Part shown: positions 48,244 to 56,651 of the stretch, piece after piece
Layout of the letters: every line of letters begins with the position of its first letter
Numbering within the stretch: position 1 is the first letter of the stretch
Source of the DNA: Saccharothrix deserti
GTDB taxonomy: Bacteria; Actinomycetota; Actinomycetes; Mycobacteriales; Pseudonocardiaceae
Length of the DNA stretch: 64,000 nt
Direction: 5' to 3'
NCBI RefSeq assembly: GCF_009769385.1
Contig: NZ_VKAB01000011.1
Location: 248,001 to 312,000 of the forward strand
Notes under the pieces: generated by a model
Told to the model about the DNA's origin: nothing
Database searches by the model: none
What the model saw: the letters and a program-made list of their open reading frames with translations, nothing else
Position numbers and translations under genes: made by a program

Positions 48244-48363
48244 ACGTTCGACATCACCCGTCGCTGTACTTCAACCGTCGAATCGCATCCCGCCGACGCG
48301 GTGCGGACTCTTCGAAAACCCTGGCCCGACGCGGAATCCCGCGCTGTCCGAAGGGATCGAACC

Positions 48364-49698
48364 GTGGTCGAGCACGACGAGTTGGACGGCGCGCACCTGC
48401 CCGTGGTGGTCGTGGGCGGTGGGCAGGCCGGGCTGTCGATGAGCCACCGGCTGGGCGAACGCGGCGTCGAGCACGTGGTGCTGGAGAAGGACCAGGCGGG
48501 CGGCGAGTGGGCCGCCCGGCGGTGGGACTCGTTCTGCCTCGTCACGCCCAACTGGCAGTGCCGGCTGCCAGGCTTCCCGTACTCCGGCGACGACCCGGAC
48601 GGGTTCATGGGGCGCGACGAGATCGTCGCCTACATCCGTGACTACATCCGCTCGTTCGGACCACCGCTGCGCGAAGGCGTCGCTGTCACCCGCCTGAGGC
48701 GCACCGACAAAGGATTCCGGCTCACCACGACGAACGGCGTGCTCACGGCCGACCAGGTCGTCCTCGCCACCGGCCCGTACCAGGTGCCACGCATCCCACG
48801 CCCGGCCGAACGGCTGCCCGAAGCCATCACGCAAGTGCACTCCTCGACCTACCGCAACCCGGAACAGCTGCCCGACGGCGAGGTGCTGGTCGTGGGCAGC
48901 GGGCAGTCCGGCAGCCAGATCGCCGAGGACCTGCACCTCGCCGGTCGCCGGGTGCACCTCGCGGTCGGCACGGCGCCGCGCGTCGCCCGCTCCTACCGGG
49001 GCCGGGACGTGGTCGCGTGGTTGGACGGGATGGGCTACTACCGGCGCGGCATCGAGGAGTTCGACGACGCCGACGCGGTGCGGTTCCGGGTCAACCACTA
49101 CGTCACCGGACGGGACGGCGGGCGCGACATCGACCTGCGGGCGTTCGCGCGGGACGGGATGCGGCTGCACGGCAGGCTCACCGGGATCAGCGAAGGCGTG
49201 CTGCGGTTCGCCGACGACCTGAAGGCCAACCTCGACCACGCCGACGCGGTGTCCGAGGGCATCAAGGACTCCATCGACGCCCACATAGCCCGACAGGGCA
49301 TCGACGCTCCACAAGAGACTCGTTACACACCGGTGTGGACGCCACCCGATGGCCCCGGAGAAGTGGACGCGGCAACGCTTTCCGCCGTCGTGTGGGCCAC
49401 CGGGTTCGGCACCGATCGGCGGTGGATCGAGGTCCCGGTGTTCGACGGCCGGGGCTACCCGACGCACGTGCGCGGTGTGACCAGCTGCCCCGGCCTGTAC
49501 TTCCTCGGCCTGCCCTGGCAGCACACGTGGGGCTCGGGCCGGTTCTGCGGTGTCGCCGACGACGCCGAACACCTGGCCCGCGAGATCACCCGGCCACGCG
49601 CGGCGCCGTCACCCGCCGAGGTCCGCTGGATCGCGGGCACCCGCACCGACACCTGGCCCCGTGACGACGACTGGACCGCGCCGCGCACCGTGGCCTGA
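48364..49698 (+). CDS. flavin-dependent oxidoreductase, MSMEG_0569 family (Nit1C cluster)
   Basis: A 444-residue FMO-like FAD/NADP enzyme. FAD fold VVVVGGGQAGLSMSHRLGER, a second Rossmann motif VLVVGSGQSGSQIAEDL, and WATGFGTD near the C-terminus. Start GTG 48364 is chosen for AAGGGA upstream. This family is a regular member of the Nit1C nitrilase cluster. Its substrate has not been established as far as I know. First gene of the cluster here. Confidence 0.86.
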   Translation: MVEHDELDGAHLPVVVVGGGQAGLSMSHRLGERGVEHVVLEKDQAGGEWAARRWDSFCLVTPNWQCRLPGFPYSGDDPDGFMGRDEIVAYIRDYIRSFGPPLREGVAVTRLRRTDKGFRLTTTNGVLTADQVVLATGPYQVPRIPRPAERLPEAITQVHSSTYRNPEQLPDGEVLVVGSGQSGSQIAEDLHLAGRRVHLAVGTAPRVARSYRGRDVVAWLDGMGYYRRGIEEFDDADAVRFRVNHYVTGRDGGRDIDLRAFARDGMRLHGRLTGISEGVLRFADDLKANLDHADAVSEGIKDSIDAHIARQGIDAPQETRYTPVWTPPDGPGEVDAATLSAVVWATGFGTDRRWIEVPVFDGRGYPTHVRGVTSCPGLYFLGLPWQHTWGSGRFCGVADDAEHLAREITRPRAAPSPAEVRWIAGTRTDTWPRDDDWTAPRTVA

Positions 49699-49714: not shown

Positions 49715-50536
49715 ATGGGCACCGTCTACGACGCGCACCGACACCTCGGCGTGCTGCCCGCCCACCCGTTCTACGGCGGCCCCGCCGTGAACCCCGACCG
49801 AAACGCCCGCGCCACCATCCGTGAACTGATCGCCGACCTCGACGCCGAGGGCACCGAACGCGCGCTCGTGATACCCAACTACGGCGTGCCCGACCCGGCG
49901 CTCGCGTTCTCCTTCAACGAGTTGTGCGTGGAGGCGGCGAGCACCGACGACCGGATCCGGGCCGGGCTGTGGGTGTCACCGCTGGCCCGTGACGCGGACC
50001 GCACCGAGGCGGCGCTGCGCCTGGCGGGCGAGCCGGGTGTGCGGGCGCTGAAGCTCAGCTTCCTGCTCGGCGGCAGACCGACCGACCCGGCGTGCCGCCC
50101 CGGCCTCGACCGGATCTTCGCGGTGGCGGCCGAACACCACCTGGTGGTGCACGTGCACACCTCGCCCGGAGCCGCGTCCGACATCGACGAGGTCGGTCAC
50201 CTCGTCGACTGGTACGGCGACCACGTCGCGGTGCACCTCGTGCACTTCGGCGGCGGTATGAGCGGGCACATCAAGCTGGTCGGCTCGCGCTTCTTCGACT
50301 GGATCGACCGGGGCAAGCGCGTCTACACCGACCTGTCGTGGGCGATCGGCTTCGCGCCGCGCTGGCTCGCCGACGAGATCGACAAGCGCGGCACGGGGCA
50401 CGACCGCGTGCTGTTCGCCAGCGACGAGCCGTGGGGCGACCACCCCGGCGAGTGCGCCCGCCTGCGTGCGGCGGTCGGGGACGGCGAGCTCGCCGACCTC
50501 GTCTTCCGCGCCACGTTCGAAGAACTCTACGGCTGA
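49715..50536 (+). CDS. amidohydrolase family protein in the Nit1C cluster
   Basis: A 273-residue metal-dependent hydrolase of the amidohydrolase/TIM-barrel superfamily. HXH is at His8 and His10 (YDAHRHLGV); later ligands include the His pair in VVHVHTSPG, HLVHFGGG and Asp in FASDEPWGDHP. The ATG has CGGAGGTG and follows the flavoprotein by 16 bp, so it belongs to the operon although it is not one of the core seven Nit1C genes. Substrate unknown; an amide or formyl product of nitrile metabolism is one idea. Confidence 0.83.
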   Translation: MGTVYDAHRHLGVLPAHPFYGGPAVNPDRNARATIRELIADLDAEGTERALVIPNYGVPDPALAFSFNELCVEAASTDDRIRAGLWVSPLARDADRTEAALRLAGEPGVRALKLSFLLGGRPTDPACRPGLDRIFAVAAEHHLVVHVHTSPGAASDIDEVGHLVDWYGDHVAVHLVHFGGGMSGHIKLVGSRFFDWIDRGKRVYTDLSWAIGFAPRWLADEIDKRGTGHDRVLFASDEPWGDHPGECARLRAAVGDGELADLVFRATFEELYG

Positions 50537-50569: not shown

Positions 50570-51082
50570 ATGGCCGACCTGACCGAACTCGAGAAGCAGA
50601 GCCTGGACGAGATCCCGCACCCGTCGCTGCCCGAGGGCTCGTCCCTCTACGGCGGGACCAAGGTGTTCCCCGACTACCAGGCCGAGGCGGGCGAAACGTA
50701 CTTCACCCTGGTCCACGGCATCGCGCACGAGTCGTCGGTGAGCTTCGTGGCGATCCTCCAGGCGACCCGCGCGCTGCGGAAGGGCTTCGAGTCGGCGATC
50801 TACTTCTACGGTCCCGGTTCGCTGAACTGCCTGGCCACCAGGGGGTTCCCGACGACGGGCAACGCCGCGTTCCCCGGTGAGATGAACATCAACGACCAGC
50901 TCAAGACGTTCATCGCCGAGGGCGGCAAGGTGTTCTGCTGCCGGTTCGGCCTGTCGCTGCACGGCGCGCGGGAGGAAGACCTCATCGAGGGCGTCATCCC
51001 CACGCACCCGTTGGACGTGCAGGACGCGTTGATCCACTACGCGCGCAAGGGCGCGATCATCAACTCCACCTACATGTTCTAG
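50570..51082 (+). CDS. MSMEG_0572/Sll0783-family nitrogen-starvation response protein
   Basis: A 170-residue soluble protein, probably DsrE-like fold (SAIYFYGPGSLNCLATRGFP, then KTFIAEGGKVFCCRFGLSLH). It belongs to the Sll0783/MSMEG_0572 family induced by nitrogen starvation in cyanobacteria and mycobacteria. The conserved Cys pair and lone Cys suggest sulfur or redox chemistry, but its role is undefined. It precedes the radical SAM gene by 9 bp. Confidence 0.86.
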   Translation: MADLTELEKQSLDEIPHPSLPEGSSLYGGTKVFPDYQAEAGETYFTLVHGIAHESSVSFVAILQATRALRKGFESAIYFYGPGSLNCLATRGFPTTGNAAFPGEMNINDQLKTFIAEGGKVFCCRFGLSLHGAREEDLIEGVIPTHPLDVQDALIHYARKGAIINSTYMF

Positions 51083-51091
51083 GGGGTCGTC

Positions 51092-52177
51092 GTGCGCGTT
51101 GGCACCGAGAACGACGTGATCGCGGCGAGAGTCGGCATCGCCGTGCAAGGGGTGCGCGTGGACGCGCCCGTGCGACGGCCGCAGGGCGCGGGGCCCAGCG
51201 ACGACGGGCACGTCCTGGTCGACGGTGCCAACGCGGCACTACCCCGCAACCCCGACAGTCCCTACGAGGTGCGGGACGGGAGGATCTTCCACGGCGCGGT
51301 GGACACCGGGCTGTCGTTGACGGTCGTGCGGCGACCCAGGTTCTACGACCTGGTGACCGCGGACGGCGTGCCGTACGAGCAGATCGCCCGGTTGCACGGC
51401 AAGGACGTGCTGGCGACGACGGTCGTGCAGACGTGCATACGGTATGGAGAAGACCAGCGGTGCCGGTTCTGCACGATCGAGGAGTCGTTGCGGGCCGGGG
51501 CCACGGTCGCGGCCAAGACGCCCGCGCAGTTGGCCGAGGTCGCGTCGGCGGCCGTTCGGCTGGACGGCGTCCGGCAGATGGTGATGACGACCGGGACGAC
51601 CGCCGGTCCCGATCGCGGTGCGCGGAACCTGGTGCGGAGCGTGCGGGCGGTGCTGGAGGCCGTGCCGGGGTTGCCGATCCAGGTGCAGATCGAGCCGCCG
51701 GGTGATCCGGGTGTGCTCGCCGAGCTGCGTGCGGCGGGTGCGACGGCGATCGGCATCCACGTCGAGTCGTTGGACGACGAGGTGCGGCGGAGGTGGATGC
51801 CGGGGAAGTCGACCGTGCCGTTGGCCGAGTACTGGGCGGCGTGGGACGAGGCGGTGCGGGTGTTCGGGTGGAACAAGGTGTCCACCTACCTGTTGATCGG
51901 CCTCGGTGAGGACGCCGAGTCGGAGGCGGATTCGATCGTGGCGGGTGCGGCTTCGCTGATCGAGCGCGGCGTGTACCCGTTCGCGGTGCCGTTCCGGCCG
52001 ATGGCGGGCACGTTGGCGCGGCGGGACGGGGTGGCGGGGCCGTCGGTGGAACTGGTGGCCTCGGTGACGTCGCGGATCGCCGAGCTGCTGCGTGCGGCCG
52101 GGATGACCGGTGCGGGGCAGGAGGCCGGGTGCGCGGCTTGCGGTGCGTGCGGCGCGTTGCAGGCGGCGGGCGGATGA
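51092..52177 (+). CDS. radical SAM protein, MSMEG_0568 family
   Basis: A 361-residue enzyme. The presumed [4Fe-4S] cysteines are Cys115, Cys124 and Cys127, a CX8CX2C spacing instead of CX3CX2C. SAM-site features follow (MVMTTGTTAG; IQVQIEPPG; IGIHVESLDDEVRRRWMPGK). A Cys-rich C-terminus (CAACGACG) could hold a second cluster or metal. Core Nit1C member. ATGA overlap with the next gene. The reaction is unknown. Confidence 0.86.
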   Translation: MRVGTENDVIAARVGIAVQGVRVDAPVRRPQGAGPSDDGHVLVDGANAALPRNPDSPYEVRDGRIFHGAVDTGLSLTVVRRPRFYDLVTADGVPYEQIARLHGKDVLATTVVQTCIRYGEDQRCRFCTIEESLRAGATVAAKTPAQLAEVASAAVRLDGVRQMVMTTGTTAGPDRGARNLVRSVRAVLEAVPGLPIQVQIEPPGDPGVLAELRAAGATAIGIHVESLDDEVRRRWMPGKSTVPLAEYWAAWDEAVRVFGWNKVSTYLLIGLGEDAESEADSIVAGAASLIERGVYPFAVPFRPMAGTLARRDGVAGPSVELVASVTSRIAELLRAAGMTGAGQEAGCAACGACGALQAAGG

Positions 52178-53865
52178 TCGCCTTCGACGGCCCGCTCCGG
52201 GCGACGGCGTCGGAGGTCGTGGCGCTGCTGGGTGAACGGCCGGTGCGACCGGGGTTCCGGATCGAGCCGGCGGACGACGTCGCGGCGTACCGGGAGCTGC
52301 GGCGGCGCGTGTTCGTGGAGGAGCAGGGGCTGTTCTCCGGGACCGACTTGGACGAGCACGACGACGATCCGCGCACGGTCGTGCTGGTGGCGCGGGACGA
52401 GCACGGGCAGCTGCTGGGCGGGGTTCGCCTGCACCCGGCGCGGGTCGACGGCCCGGACATCGGCTGGTGGCAGGGCGGGCGGCTGGTGGTCGACCCGGCC
52501 AGTCGCGGCACGCGCGGCGGCGGCGGCAGGCGCGGCGGCGGCGGCAGGCGCGGCGGCGGCGGCGGCAGGCGCGGCAGCGGCACGGATAGTGCCGGTGGTG
52601 CCGGCGGCTCTCATGGTGCGGGTGGAGTCGCTGATTCGGACCGAGTCCGTGGCGGTGGCGGCTCCGGTGGTGACGACGGCGGTGGTTGGTCGCGGTCCTC
52701 GTTGTTTCAACCGACGTTTCAACCTGGCGATAACGCTGTTTTCTTTAGGTCCTCAGGCCATGATCACTCGATCGGGTTTGGTTCGGGTGGTGTCGGTGGG
52801 GTCGGGCCGGCTCTGGTGCGGGCGGCGTGCGCTTACGTCGAGGGTGCCGGGGCGTTGCGGTTCGACGCAACCGTGCAGGCGCGTAACGAGGTGCTGTTCA
52901 CCCGGTTGGGGTGGACACGGGTCCGGGACGTCGTCGTGGCCGGGCAGCCGCACGTGTTGATGCGGTGGCCGATCGGTCGCATCGCGGCTTTGGTCGCCGC
53001 CACCAAGCGCGACCTCGGGCGTCTGCTGCACGGGCTGAACCCCGGCGGCGCCGGCTTCGTCGGTGACGACGGCGCGCCCGTGCCCGGCAGCGATCTCGTG
53101 GCGGCGTGTGACGCGATCGTGCCCTCGATGGTGGAGCGCTCACCAGAGTGGGCCGGGTGGTGTTCGGTCCTGGTCAACCTGAACGACCTGGCCGCGATGG
53201 GCGCGGAACCGGTCGGGCTATTGGATGCAATAGGCGCGCGGGACGTGTCGTTCGCGTCCAGAGTCCTCAGTGGACTTCGTATGGCGTGTACTGCATACGA
53301 TGTGCCGGTTCTTGGTGGGCACACGCAGCTCGGTGTGCCGGCCGCGCTGTCGGTCACGGCGCTGGGGCGGACCGCGCATCCCGTGCCGGCCGGTGGTGGG
53401 AAGCCGGGACATCACGTCAGGCTCACCGCCGATCTGGGCGGTGGGTGGCGGACGGGCTACCAGGGACGTCAGTGGGACTCGACGTCCACCCGCCGCACGC
53501 CCGAACTGCGCGCGATGCTCGGCTCGGTGGCCGTCGCGCGACCGAAAGCCGCCAAGGACGTGTCCATGGCCGGTGTCGTCGGCACGCTCGGGATGCTCGC
53601 CGAGGCCAGTGGCTGCGCCGCCGTGCTCGACGTGGCCGCGGCGCCACGGCCACGTGAGGCGAGCGCGGGCGACTGGCTCACCTGCTTCCCCGGCTTCGCC
53701 ATGCTCACCGCCGACGAACCGGGCACCCCGGCCCCGCCCGCCGGCCCGGCCGAGAGCGCGGTGTGCGGTGAGCTGGTCGCCGGGCGCGGTGTAGTGCTGC
53801 GCTGGCCGGACGGAGACGTCACCGAAGCTGTCACGGGCGCCGTGACGGGAATGGGGATCGCATGA
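52174..53865 (+). CDS. MSMEG_0567/sll0787-family protein: GNAT plus AIR-synthase-like domains, with insertion
   Basis: A 563-residue fusion. The N-terminal GNAT domain (about 28-270) starts FRIEPADDVAAYRELRRRVF and is interrupted: after RLVVDPASRGTRGG come about 91 Gly/Arg/Ser-rich residues, then GVGPALVRAACAYVEGAGAL resumes the acetyl-CoA loop. The C-terminal PurM-like domain (about 275-563) has GDDGAPVPGSDLV, LVNLNDLAAMGAEPVG and AKDVSMAGVVGTLGML. ATGA overlaps on both ends tie it into the operon. Without the insertion its length would match the family. Whether the GNAT half is active is doubtful. Confidence 0.85.
   Translation: MIAFDGPLRATASEVVALLGERPVRPGFRIEPADDVAAYRELRRRVFVEEQGLFSGTDLDEHDDDPRTVVLVARDEHGQLLGGVRLHPARVDGPDIGWWQGGRLVVDPASRGTRGGGGRRGGGGRRGGGGGRRGSGTDSAGGAGGSHGAGGVADSDRVRGGGGSGGDDGGGWSRSSLFQPTFQPGDNAVFFRSSGHDHSIGFGSGGVGGVGPALVRAACAYVEGAGALRFDATVQARNEVLFTRLGWTRVRDVVVAGQPHVLMRWPIGRIAALVAATKRDLGRLLHGLNPGGAGFVGDDGAPVPGSDLVAACDAIVPSMVERSPEWAGWCSVLVNLNDLAAMGAEPVGLLDAIGARDVSFASRVLSGLRMACTAYDVPVLGGHTQLGVPAALSVTALGRTAHPVPAGGGKPGHHVRLTADLGGGWRTGYQGRQWDSTSTRRTPELRAMLGSVAVARPKAAKDVSMAGVVGTLGMLAEASGCAAVLDVAAAPRPREASAGDWLTCFPGFAMLTADEPGTPAPPAGPAESAVCGELVAGRGVVLRWPDGDVTEAVTGAVTGMGIA
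52521..52794 (+). repeat. in-frame low-complexity insertion within the GNAT domain
   Basis: About 274 bp. It opens with 18-bp GC-only repeats (GGCGGCGGCGGCAGGCGC type, with a one-codon expansion), then passes into a less GC-rich stretch (52700-52790) containing the direct repeat GTTTCAACC. In the CDS frame third positions are often T or A (TTT, CAA, GAT, GCT), unlike the rest of the gene; GC is higher at third positions in the +1-shifted frame. Confidence 0.7.
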
Positions 53866-54707
53866 GCGTCCTGCGCGTGGCCGCCGCGGCGGCGCCGTTC
53901 GACCGCGACCTGGAAGCCGATTTCGCCCGGGTGGCCGACCTGATCGAGGGCGCGAAGGCGGCCGGGGTCGGTCTGCTCGCGCTGCCCGAGGCCTGTCTCG
54001 GCGGCTATCTGTCCACTCTGGACGGCAGTGCGGACGGTCCGCCCGCGCTGGCGCTGGACGGTCCCGAGATCGGCAGGCTGGCGGCACTCGCGGGCGACCT
54101 GGTCGTCACCGCCGGGTACTGCGAGCTGGCCGACGGCGTGCGCTACAACAGCGTCGTCTGCGTGACCGGTGACGGCGTGCTCGGCAACCACCGCAAGGTG
54201 CACCAGCCGTTGAACGAGAACGCCAGCTACGGCGCGGGCGACGGTTTCGCCGCGTTCGACACGCCGGTCGGCCGGCTCGGCATGATGATCTGCTACGACA
54301 AGGCGTTCCCCGAATCGGCCCGCGCGCTGGCACTGGACGGCGCCGAGATCGTGGTGTGCGCGTCGGCGTGGCCGGGCAGCCGCACGAACGCCGCCGCCGA
54401 CCTGGCCGAGGACCGGTGGACCCGCCGGTTCGACCTGTTCGACCGGGCGCGGGCGTTGGAGAACCAGGTCGTGTGGGTGTCGGCGAACCAGTCCGGCGAG
54501 TTCGGCTCGCTGCGGTTCGTGGCCAGCGCCAAGGTGGTCGACCCCGGCGGTGACGTGCTCGCCACCACCGGTGTCGCGGCGGGCGTGGCGGTGGCGGAGA
54601 TCGACGTGACGGCGGCGTTGGAGGCGGCCCGCCGGTCGATGGGCCACCTGCGGGACCGCCGACCGGAGGCCTACCAGCCGGTGGACGGCGACCTCGCACG
54701 GGCATGA
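53862..54707 (+). CDS. Nit1C-type nitrilase (catalytic copy)
   Basis: A 281-residue carbon-nitrogen hydrolase. The triad is complete: Glu43 (LPEACLGGY), Lys112 (HRKVHQP), Cys144 (MMICYDKAFPE). This group (with Synechocystis Nit6803) hydrolyses nitriles, and Nit1C nitrilases have been linked to bacterial cyanide assimilation. ATG overlaps the previous gene (ATGA). The next gene, 7 bp on, is a paralogue lacking two of the three residues. Confidence 0.93.
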   Translation: MSVLRVAAAAAPFDRDLEADFARVADLIEGAKAAGVGLLALPEACLGGYLSTLDGSADGPPALALDGPEIGRLAALAGDLVVTAGYCELADGVRYNSVVCVTGDGVLGNHRKVHQPLNENASYGAGDGFAAFDTPVGRLGMMICYDKAFPESARALALDGAEIVVCASAWPGSRTNAAADLAEDRWTRRFDLFDRARALENQVVWVSANQSGEFGSLRFVASAKVVDPGGDVLATTGVAAGVAVAEIDVTAALEAARRSMGHLRDRRPEAYQPVDGDLARA

Positions 54708-54714
54708 TGCACTC

Positions 54715-55539
54715 GTGAGCACCCTTCGCATCGGGGCCGCGGCGGCGGCGTTCGGCCGCGACCTCGACTTCGACCTGCGCCGCATCGGCACCCTCGTCGA
54801 CCACGCCCGGCGGTCCGGTGTCGGACTGCTGGTGCTGCCCGACGCCGCGCTCGGCGGCTACCTCGCCGACCTGCGGCACCCCGACCCCGACGCGTTGCCG
54901 CCCGCGTTGGAACCGGACGGTCCGCTCATCAGGGAGGTCGCGCGGATGGCGGCGGAGATGGTGGTGTGCGTGGGGTACTGCGAGGCCGACGGCGACGACC
55001 GGTACAACAGCGCGGTGTGCGTCAACGGCGACGGCGTGCTCGGCAGGCACCGCAAGGTGCACCAGCCCGCGGGCGAGTCCATCGCCTACCGGGCGGGCGA
55101 CGAGTTCACCGCGTTCGACACGCCCGTGGGTCGGCTGGGCATGCTCATCGACTACGACAAGACGTTCCCGGAGGCCGCCCGGTCGTTGGCACTGGACGGG
55201 GCGGAGATCCTGGCGTGCCTGTCCGCGTGGCCGACCAGCATCACCAACCGCGCGCCGCGGATGGCGCAGGACCGGCAGTCCCGGCTGTTCGACCTGTACG
55301 ACTGCGCGCGGGCGGCCGAGAACCAGGTCGTGCTGGCGTCGTCCAACCAGACCGGCGCGTTGGGCGGGATGAAGTTCCTCGGGCAGGCCAAGGTGGTCGG
55401 TCCGGGTGGCGAGGTGCTGGCGCGCACGTGGTCCAAGGCCGGGATCGCGGTGGCGGAGGTCGATCCGCCGGTCGAGATCGCCAAGGCGCGCCGGGTGCTC
55501 AGCCACCTGGCCGAGCGGAAACCGGCGGCGTACGCGTGA
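54715..55539 (+). CDS. nitrilase paralogue lacking catalytic Glu and Cys (pseudo-enzyme)
   Basis: A 274-residue protein, colinear with and clearly related to the preceding nitrilase (RRVLSHLAERKPAAYA end; HRKVHQP shared). At the catalytic sites it has Asp43 for Glu (LPDAALGGY) and Asp146 for Cys (MLIDYDKTFPE); Lys114 is kept. The frame is intact and codon use is normal, so it is a maintained gene, not a decaying copy. It may pair with the active nitrilase or bind a ligand. GTG start; GTGA overlap with the glycosyltransferase. Confidence 0.9.
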   Translation: MSTLRIGAAAAAFGRDLDFDLRRIGTLVDHARRSGVGLLVLPDAALGGYLADLRHPDPDALPPALEPDGPLIREVARMAAEMVVCVGYCEADGDDRYNSAVCVNGDGVLGRHRKVHQPAGESIAYRAGDEFTAFDTPVGRLGMLIDYDKTFPEAARSLALDGAEILACLSAWPTSITNRAPRMAQDRQSRLFDLYDCARAAENQVVLASSNQTGALGGMKFLGQAKVVGPGGEVLARTWSKAGIAVAEVDPPVEIAKARRVLSHLAERKPAAYA

Positions 55540-56651
55540 GGGTCGCGCTGCTGACGTACTCGTCCAAGCCGCGTGGCGGGGTGGTGCACACGTTGGCGTT
55601 GGCGGAGGCGTTGGCTGCTGCGGGTGCTTCCGTGACGGTGTGGACGTTGGGGCGGGGTGGGGACACCGGGTTCTTCCGGCCGGTGGACCGGCGGGTGGCG
55701 TTGCGGGTGGTGCCGTTCCCGGAGGTGGAGGGCGAGGAGGTCGGGGCGCGGATCCTGCGGTCGATCGCCGTGCTGCGGGAGGCGTTCGACCCGTCCGGGT
55801 TCGACGTCGTGCACGCGCAGGACTGCATCAGCGCCAACGCGGTGGACGTGTGCGTGCGGACGGTGCACCACATCGACCACTTCACCACGCCGGAGTTGGC
55901 GGCTTGTCATGAGCGCGCGCTGACGTCGCCGGTCGCGCACGTGTGCGTGTCTTCGGCGGTGGCGGGGGAGTTGCGGGACGGGTGGGGGATCGCGGCCGAG
56001 GTGATACCCAACGGGGTGGATGCGGCGCGGTTCGCTCGTGCTGGGCGGCGCGGGTGGGAGCACTTGGGGCGGTACGTGCTCGCGGTGGGTGGGATCGAGC
56101 CGCGTAAGGGGTCTCTCGAGCTGCTGGAGGCGTATGCCTTGTTGCGGGCTCGGCATCCTGATGTGCGGTTGGTGATGGCGGGCGGGGAGACGTTGTTCGA
56201 CTACCGGGACTACCGGGCTCGGTGGGAGGAGCGGGCTCGGGAGTCGGGGGTGGAGCCGGTCGTGCTCGGGCCGGTGGACCACGACGCGTTGCCGTCGTTG
56301 GTGGCGTCGGCGGCGGTGTTCGCGTTCCCGTCCACGAAGGAGGGGTTCGGGCTGGCGGCCATGGAGGCGTTGGCGGCCGGTGTGCCGTTGGTGGCGCGTG
56401 ACCTGCCGGTGTTGCGGGAGGTGTTCGACGGTGCTGCGCGTTTTGCCGTCACTCCGTCGGAGTTCGCGGAGGCGTTGGCCGATGCCTTGGCCGACGGTGG
56501 GGCGTTCGCCGAGGTGGGTAGGGCGTTGGCGGACCGTCACACGTGGGCGGAGGCGGCCCAACGCCACCTCACGTTCTACCGCTCTCTGCTCGACCGGGGT
56601 GTTCTGAGTGTTGAACTCGGGGGTCCTGAAGGTAGGACACGCGCGTTCTGA
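55536..56651 (+). CDS. glycosyltransferase, MSMEG_0565 family (GT4 type)
   Basis: A 371-residue GT-B enzyme. N-terminal VALLTYSSKPRGGVVHTLAL; donor-binding half with GGIEPRKGSLELLEAY and the GT4 EX7E-like FPSTKEGFGLAAMEALAAG. Last core gene of the Nit1C cluster; acceptor unknown. The final ~16 residues (from VLSVELGG) are encoded by the beginning of the 22-bp repeat element, so the natural stop has been replaced or extended by the repeat. Confidence 0.88.
   Translation: MRVALLTYSSKPRGGVVHTLALAEALAAAGASVTVWTLGRGGDTGFFRPVDRRVALRVVPFPEVEGEEVGARILRSIAVLREAFDPSGFDVVHAQDCISANAVDVCVRTVHHIDHFTTPELAACHERALTSPVAHVCVSSAVAGELRDGWGIAAEVIPNGVDAARFARAGRRGWEHLGRYVLAVGGIEPRKGSLELLEAYALLRARHPDVRLVMAGGETLFDYRDYRARWEERARESGVEPVVLGPVDHDALPSLVASAAVFAFPSTKEGFGLAAMEALAAGVPLVARDLPVLREVFDGAARFAVTPSEFAEALADALADGGAFAEVGRALADRHTWAEAAQRHLTFYRSLLDRGVLSVELGGPEGRTRAF

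Follow-up and report, generated by a model that had tools for sequence, protein, structure and literature searches.

A conserved pseudo-amidase with Asp in place of both catalytic Glu and Cys, beside an intact paralogue in a gpr-type operon of Saccharothrix deserti and other actinobacteria

A 64,000-nucleotide stretch of the Saccharothrix deserti genome (contig NZ_VKAB01000011.1, positions 248,001 to 312,000 of the forward strand; hereafter the window) carries two tandem genes, N1 and N2, for members of the nitrilase superfamily, the second having Asp in place of both the catalytic Glu and the catalytic Cys. This pairing of an Asp-form pseudoenzyme with its active paralogue is real and conserved, and it lies in an operon which is known but biochemically unsolved. 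The two genes are:

53862-54707, + strand: N1, amidase-like CN-hydrolase of 281 amino acids, ATG start (PF00795 138.9 bits, cut-off 23.2)
54715-55539, + strand: N2, pseudo-amidase of 274 amino acids, GTG start (PF00795 117.6 bits, cut-off 23.2)

Both reading frames are intact, and coordinates, motifs and frames agree with an initial annotation of this DNA which had singled out the pair. N1 displays the motifs LPE43A, HRK112V and MMIC144YDK (full set E43-K112-E119-C144), and N2 the corresponding LPD43A, HRK114V and MLID146YDK (D43-K114-E121-D146), the second Glu of the superfamily, which that annotation had left out, being kept in both; 159 of the 272 aligned residues (58%) are identical. The tight coupling described at that stage is also found, with 7 bases separating the N1 stop from the N2 start and a GTGA overlap at 55536-55539 between the N2 stop and the start of the next gene, a glycosyltransferase. 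N2 belongs to the nitrilase superfamily (PF00795) by its profile match above the gathering score and by its AlphaFold model, a complete nitrilase fold with a predicted local distance difference test score of 95.4, but it lacks the catalytic Glu-Lys-(Glu)-Cys set that N1 possesses. The hydrolysis mechanism of this superfamily is established, Cys acting as nucleophile and Glu as general base. Devoid of both nucleophile and base, N2 is therefore very unlikely to perform ordinary hydrolysis, and we infer from its sequence that it is unable to hydrolyse amides. Both proteins come closest to the NCBIfam models for N-carbamoylputrescine amidase and archaeal-type nitrilase, though below every cut-off; N1 and N2 are most similar to N-carbamoylputrescine amidase and to amidases of the Pyrococcus PH0642 type. 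From three such amidases compared, N2 differs by the absence of the catalytic Cys and Glu, with 26-29% identity.

Conservation was surveyed in 135 N2-type frames (114 distinct) and 152 N1-type frames (133 distinct). Distinct sequences were counted since the same organism may recur among genomes and contigs, and two rows below 180 bits were dropped, a fragment from L089 and the unrelated CN-hydrolase L222. K114 and D146 are present in 114 of 114 distinct N2 sequences and D43 in 112, the exceptions being H43 in L134 and A43 in L213. The four catalytic positions read D-K-E-D in 104 sequences, D-K-V-D in six and, once each, D-K-L-D, D-K-D-D, H-K-E-D and A-K-E-D. The second Glu is replaced by Asp in L188 and by V or L in one clade of seven rows (L215-L220, L226), where IDYDK has also become IDHDK. 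N1-type frames display E-K-E-C in 131 of 133 cases (E43 in 131/131, C144 in 133/133 frames), the other two being incomplete: L089 is broken into two frames, and L208 runs off the end of its contig. At nine sites each group has its own fixed residue (at least 93% in both), as in E43D, C144D, W186Q and R189L. Columns conserved at 97% or more number 108 in N2 versus 73 in N1, a comparison that favours N2 as the N1 set is more divergent; in earlier, more closely matched sets (111 and 110 rows, one N1 row being a broken frame), invariant columns were 113 and 77.

N2 is under purifying selection like the neighbouring genes. Pairwise ratios of nonsynonymous to synonymous substitution rates (dN/dS, simple NG86) against 11 related loci range from 0.08 to 0.25 for N2 and from 0.10 to 0.29 for N1, and the N2 values are also much like those of the glycosyltransferase and of the radical SAM protein of the operon. 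The initial annotation had proposed a conserved pseudo-hydrolase beside an intact enzyme, and the two Asp, fixed in nearly all distinct sequences, bear this out; the opposite case that it had envisaged, a second copy confined to this genome and marked by decay, is excluded by the presence of N2 in many genomes, by the fixation of Asp and by the dN/dS values. As Asp is fixed rather than drifting, a positive role of the charges can be argued. As N2 is strongly conserved in many soil actinobacteria, it is probably not a broken copy but a protein with an unusual function.

The distribution was followed at increasing distance. Both genes are found in 5 of 25 genomes of the genus. At the family level, 72 of 297 genomes gave a match at E <= 1e-35, three of them a single one: G216 is partial, G245 (an assembly 84% complete) is of N2 type by identity and G283 has N1 only (L227). 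The class search, with at most six candidates scored per genome, gave matches at E <= 1e-45 in 49 of 394 genomes, 32 of them with one N1-type and one N2-type match as judged by identity; among the 17 single-match genomes, 16 have the N1 type with E-K-E-C and one, G715 (L247), the N2 type with D-K-E-D, so that N2 is present in 33 of 394. At the phylum level, the MSMEG_0572-family gene of the operon (0572; other members are abbreviated likewise) was found in 19 of 396 genomes, this one included; in the regions read from the other 18, four carry N1 and N2, one N1 only and 13 neither, several of these on short contigs.

Gene order was compared in 124 sequences: the window, the best 80 of 407 relatives from a named-genome scan, 40 regions of further genomes and three plasmids. 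As 34 of the 80 are titled Streptomyces, the set leans to close relatives. The exact order flavoprotein, amidohydrolase, 0572, radical SAM, 0567, N1, N2, glycosyltransferase occurs in 38 of the 124 and the same order preceded by 0570 in 37; the others are rearranged, shorter or ended by a contig edge. Of 130 pairs, 118 have N2 downstream of N1 at a distance of 300 bases or less (median gap -1, distances estimated from alignment starts), and one of the 12 non-adjacent pairs, L106, may be an artefact.

In a tree of 74 rows rooted at midpoint, the N2 sequences group in a well supported clade (100/98, 26 rows) that emerges from an unresolved fork of N1-type lineages, with other amidases of the genus falling outside; N2 thus seems to have originated by duplication of the active amidase. 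L197, an N1-type sequence from an operon without N2, stands at the base of the N2 clade (87/93), though as a flagged long branch of unsure placement. The row labelled L188_N2 is in fact the L188 N1 frame, the genuine L188 N2 having been read separately. Fixation of the Asp form presumably predates the divergence of the sampled lineages, or their exchange of the operon.

We favour, with about even confidence, the explanation that N2 is a conserved non-hydrolytic pseudo-amidase acting as a partner of N1. N2 would have arisen by duplication of N1, the active amidase of the operon, and would most likely be a non-catalytic subunit, assembling with N1 via the usual dimer surface of the superfamily and either stabilising it or tuning its substrate access. 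D43, K114 and D146 may form a salt-bridge cluster which fills or re-charges the old active site and could bind a cationic ligand. Together with the radical SAM protein, the flavoprotein, the acetyltransferase/AIR-like protein, the amidohydrolase and the glycosyltransferase, the pair might act in a nitrogen-starvation pathway. Physical contact between N1 and N2 is presumed here, and their co-assembly is plausible. A partner role is suggested by the frequent company of N1, by adjacency and by gene order; the 32 of 49 class genomes with both types, against one with N2 alone, count in its favour, and loss of the second Glu in one N2 clade suits a protein freed from hydrolysis. PMC5154151 offers a plant precedent, the heteromeric NIT4A/NIT4B nitrilases of sorghum. 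There too two paralogous superfamily members are involved, which act together, but the plant enzymes come from another branch, and contact between N1 and N2 is presumptive.

Several observations weigh against this explanation. N1 occurs without N2 in 16 of 49 class genomes, in G283 and, within the operon (the only part searched), in G417 (L197), and therefore does not always need N2. Conversely, the N2 of G715 keeps D-K-E-D with neither N1 nor the radical SAM gene in the genome, and in the incomplete assembly G245 the only match is N2-type. With these N1-only operons and one orphan N2, the bond between the two is not absolute. The two genes are not adjacent in 12 of 130 pairs. Covariation between N1 and N2 says little either way: none of the 40 highest-ranking site pairs lies on the presumed dimer helices, where 0.6 would be expected, in an alignment of 97 N1-N2 pairs amounting to about 27 effective sequences.

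Alternatively, N2 could be active with a changed chemistry in the pathway of N1, for example as a hydratase, lyase or transferase, Asp146 serving as nucleophile or acid/base together with Lys114 and Asp43. At the Cys position Asp is found in 114 of 114 sequences, never Ala, Ser or Gly, and at the Glu position in 112; fixation at both positions argues that a charged pair is selected. The larger number of conserved columns in N2 (with the N1 set more divergent) and the motif kept by the orphan L247 without N1 go in the same direction, whereas the loss of the second Glu in one clade, its change to Asp in L188, H43 in L134 and A43 in L213 do not. We know of no Asp nucleophile in the nitrilase fold, which also counts against this possibility, and we consider it rather unlikely. 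That N2 would be the first nitrilase-fold enzyme with an Asp-Lys-Asp centre instead of Glu-Lys-Cys, and would catalyse a novel step in the nitrogen-starvation pathway, acting on one of its intermediates and not as a silent subunit, seems quite doubtful. It is likewise unlikely that N2 works as a stand-alone binder or sensor of an amine, ammonium or a pathway intermediate with no contact to N1. Such a protein would agree with a pocket that gains two acidic residues around the kept lysine, with the separate positions of the two genes in clusters of the order and in Rhodococcus, and with the orphan of G715, which fits an independent function; it agrees poorly with the tight spacing and N1-N2 order in 118 of 130 pairs, and with the single genome out of 49 in the class that has N2 without N1.

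Two further explanations can be given very little weight. It is most improbable that N2 is in truth an ordinary amidase and that the alignment assigned its catalytic residues wrongly: its PF00795 match is well over the cut-off and its predicted fold is full-length and confident, but the flanking motifs stay in register across N1, N2 and solved amidases, and the catalytic Cys of PH0642 aligns with the Asp of N2. Even less credible is a decaying duplicate, in spite of the loss of both catalytic residues, given the fixed Asp, the low dN/dS and the occurrence in 33 of 394 class genomes and in 4 of the 18 other phylum genomes that carry 0572; conservation rules out both decay and a one-genome artefact.

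The genes surrounding the pair are:

48301-49698, + strand: MSMEG_0569-family flavin-dependent oxidoreductase (TIGR04046 634.7 bits, cut-off 498.35)
49715-50536, + strand: Amidohydro_2-family protein (PF04909 51.9 bits, cut-off 26.4)
50570-51082, + strand: MSMEG_0572/Sll0783-family nitrogen starvation response protein (TIGR04044 253.7 bits, cut-off 109.85)
51092-52177, + strand: MSMEG_0568-family radical SAM protein (TIGR04043 478.7 bits, cut-off 303.7)
52174-53865, + strand: MSMEG_0567-type fused GNAT and AIR-synthase-like protein (TIGR04050 489.9 bits, cut-off 312.2; TIGR04045 83.9 bits, cut-off 68.45)
55536-56651, + strand: MSMEG_0565-family glycosyltransferase (TIGR04047 451.7 bits, cut-off 259.85)

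The profile match of the first frame begins at residue 34, and its real start may lie later. Genes overlap by 4 bases at the 0567-N1 and N2-0565 junctions and probably at 0568-0567, where the start at 52174 is deduced from an ATGA overlap; translation is thus probably coupled. The amidohydrolase gene is part of the operon in many relatives too. A relaxed tblastn with one Rhodococcus 0570 protein gave no match in positions 40001-64000 of the window, the same search matching 45 of the 124 sequences at E < 1e-3.

In its genes and their order, this arrangement corresponds to the gpr operon of Mycolicibacterium smegmatis. According to PMC6039565, MSMEG_0565-0572 constitute one GlnR-dependent operon, which is switched on by nitrogen starvation in this relative, is needed for the peroxide resistance of nitrogen-starved cells and raises the NADPH to NADP ratio; MSMEG_0566 is given there as a putative aliphatic amidase. 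Among the nitrogen-responsive genes tabulated in PMC4222082 and PMC4617892, MSMEG_0566 appears as an aliphatic amidase and MSMEG_0571 as a carbon-nitrogen hydrolase. The 0572, 0569, 0568, 0567 and 0565 families and two C-N hydrolases are all present in the window, which differs by the extra amidohydrolase, by the 0570 gene not being found and by N1 and N2 being in tandem. L189 and L250 have the same order as gpr, namely 0572, C-N hydrolase, 0570, flavoprotein, radical SAM, 0567, 'aliphatic amidase' and glycosyltransferase, and so does L190 except that 0570 was not detected there. In L189 and L250 the D-K-D protein occupies the 'aliphatic amidase' place, so by gene order in relatives N1 would correspond to the MSMEG_0571 position and N2 to the MSMEG_0566 position, the equation with M. 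smegmatis being by synteny. If synteny holds, the 0566-position gene labelled aliphatic amidase in these three papers belongs to a family without the amidase Cys and Glu. The discussion of PMC6039565 also proposes that a UGA in MSMEG_0571 is read as selenocysteine, giving an 818-amino acid fusion with the flavoprotein; L189 and L250 have a separate 0570 gene between the N1-position gene and the flavoprotein, which seems to fit this idea poorly.

The initial annotation had linked the pair to the cyanide-associated Nit1C cluster, a connection which stands for five gene families but not for the defining nitrilase. In Podar et al. 2005 (PMC1199592), Nit1C is defined with a nitrilase in second place. 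Window operon and Nit1C share 0572/Sll0783 (ORF1), radical SAM, GNAT, AIR-like and flavoprotein families, GNAT and AIR-like being fused in the window. The subfamily-1 (Nit6803/NitC) nitrilase is missing, amidase-type N1 and N2 being there instead; the amidohydrolase is an addition, the glycosyltransferase is reported in Nit1C only from some betaproteobacteria, and ORF6 (a protein of about 100 amino acids, by size and place presumably the MSMEG_0570 type) was not found in positions 40001-64000. No match of this genome exceeds the cut-off of the Nit6803-type model TIGR04048 (best 46.4 versus 502.6 bits; N1 41.0, N2 29.9), so that a canonical Nit1C with NitC is ruled out here. Nor did any of the 396 phylum genomes, with at most five candidates scored in each; the best, 484.3 bits in G457, lies in a neighbourhood (L206/L207) lacking the other operon genes. 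The cyanide link is unsupported, because the Nit6803-type nitrilase is absent and N1 and N2 are nearest to amidases. The nitrilase spiral suggested with it lacks support as well: such spirals are made by the longer C-terminus of nitrilases, and N1 and N2 are short, like the 262-amino acid PH0642 amidase, as opposed to 315-361 amino acids for cyanide-degrading enzymes and NIT4. A heteromer or an allosteric subunit, two other roles put forward in that annotation, is possible.

The Asp form was not described in the titles and abstract openings of the literature searched, which covered few subscription papers. An Asp-Lys-Asp pseudoenzyme family fixed across actinobacteria changes how the gpr-type operon should be dissected, and related N1-only operons offer a natural comparison for asking why the active site of a nitrilase fold would be re-charged and not simply lost.

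Upstream of 72 operons, a scan with a simple 9-base GlnR box gave a best match of at least 7/9 for 59 (coding controls 24/72, shuffles 534/1140) but of 8/9 for only five (controls 0/72, shuffles 47/1140); the best upstream match in the window is 7/9. In the GNAT half of the MSMEG_0567-type protein, at positions 52500-52720 of the window, a glycine/arginine-rich segment containing GCG-rich tandem repeats is inserted in frame; most of this segment is missing in the near relative L059. The orphan N2 of L247 adjoins an aldose 1-epimerase gene. A second N2-type copy, the A43 form with D146 kept, lies at 9783-10583 of L213 (genome G276), with none of the other operon genes within the 20 kb read and a second radical SAM gene about 24 kb off; it is possibly degenerating. 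L235 and L249 have a different gene after N1, the MSMEG_0569 flavoprotein being unmatched in the fetched region: in L249 it encodes a different FAD-binding protein (PF01494 50.4 bits), and in L235 a frame opening with an FAD-type glycine motif and without Pfam match. In more distant Actinomycetota (L192, L193, L195, L196, L203-L205), 0572, amidohydrolase and radical SAM genes follow each other, and the region read gave no match to N1, N2 or NitC; the amidohydrolase may be part of an older operon core. A plasmid search returned four records, all from Rhodococcus; in L228 and L230 the entire operon is carried by large plasmids and flanked on either side by IS256 or IS3 transposase genes, so that its transfer between lineages is possible.

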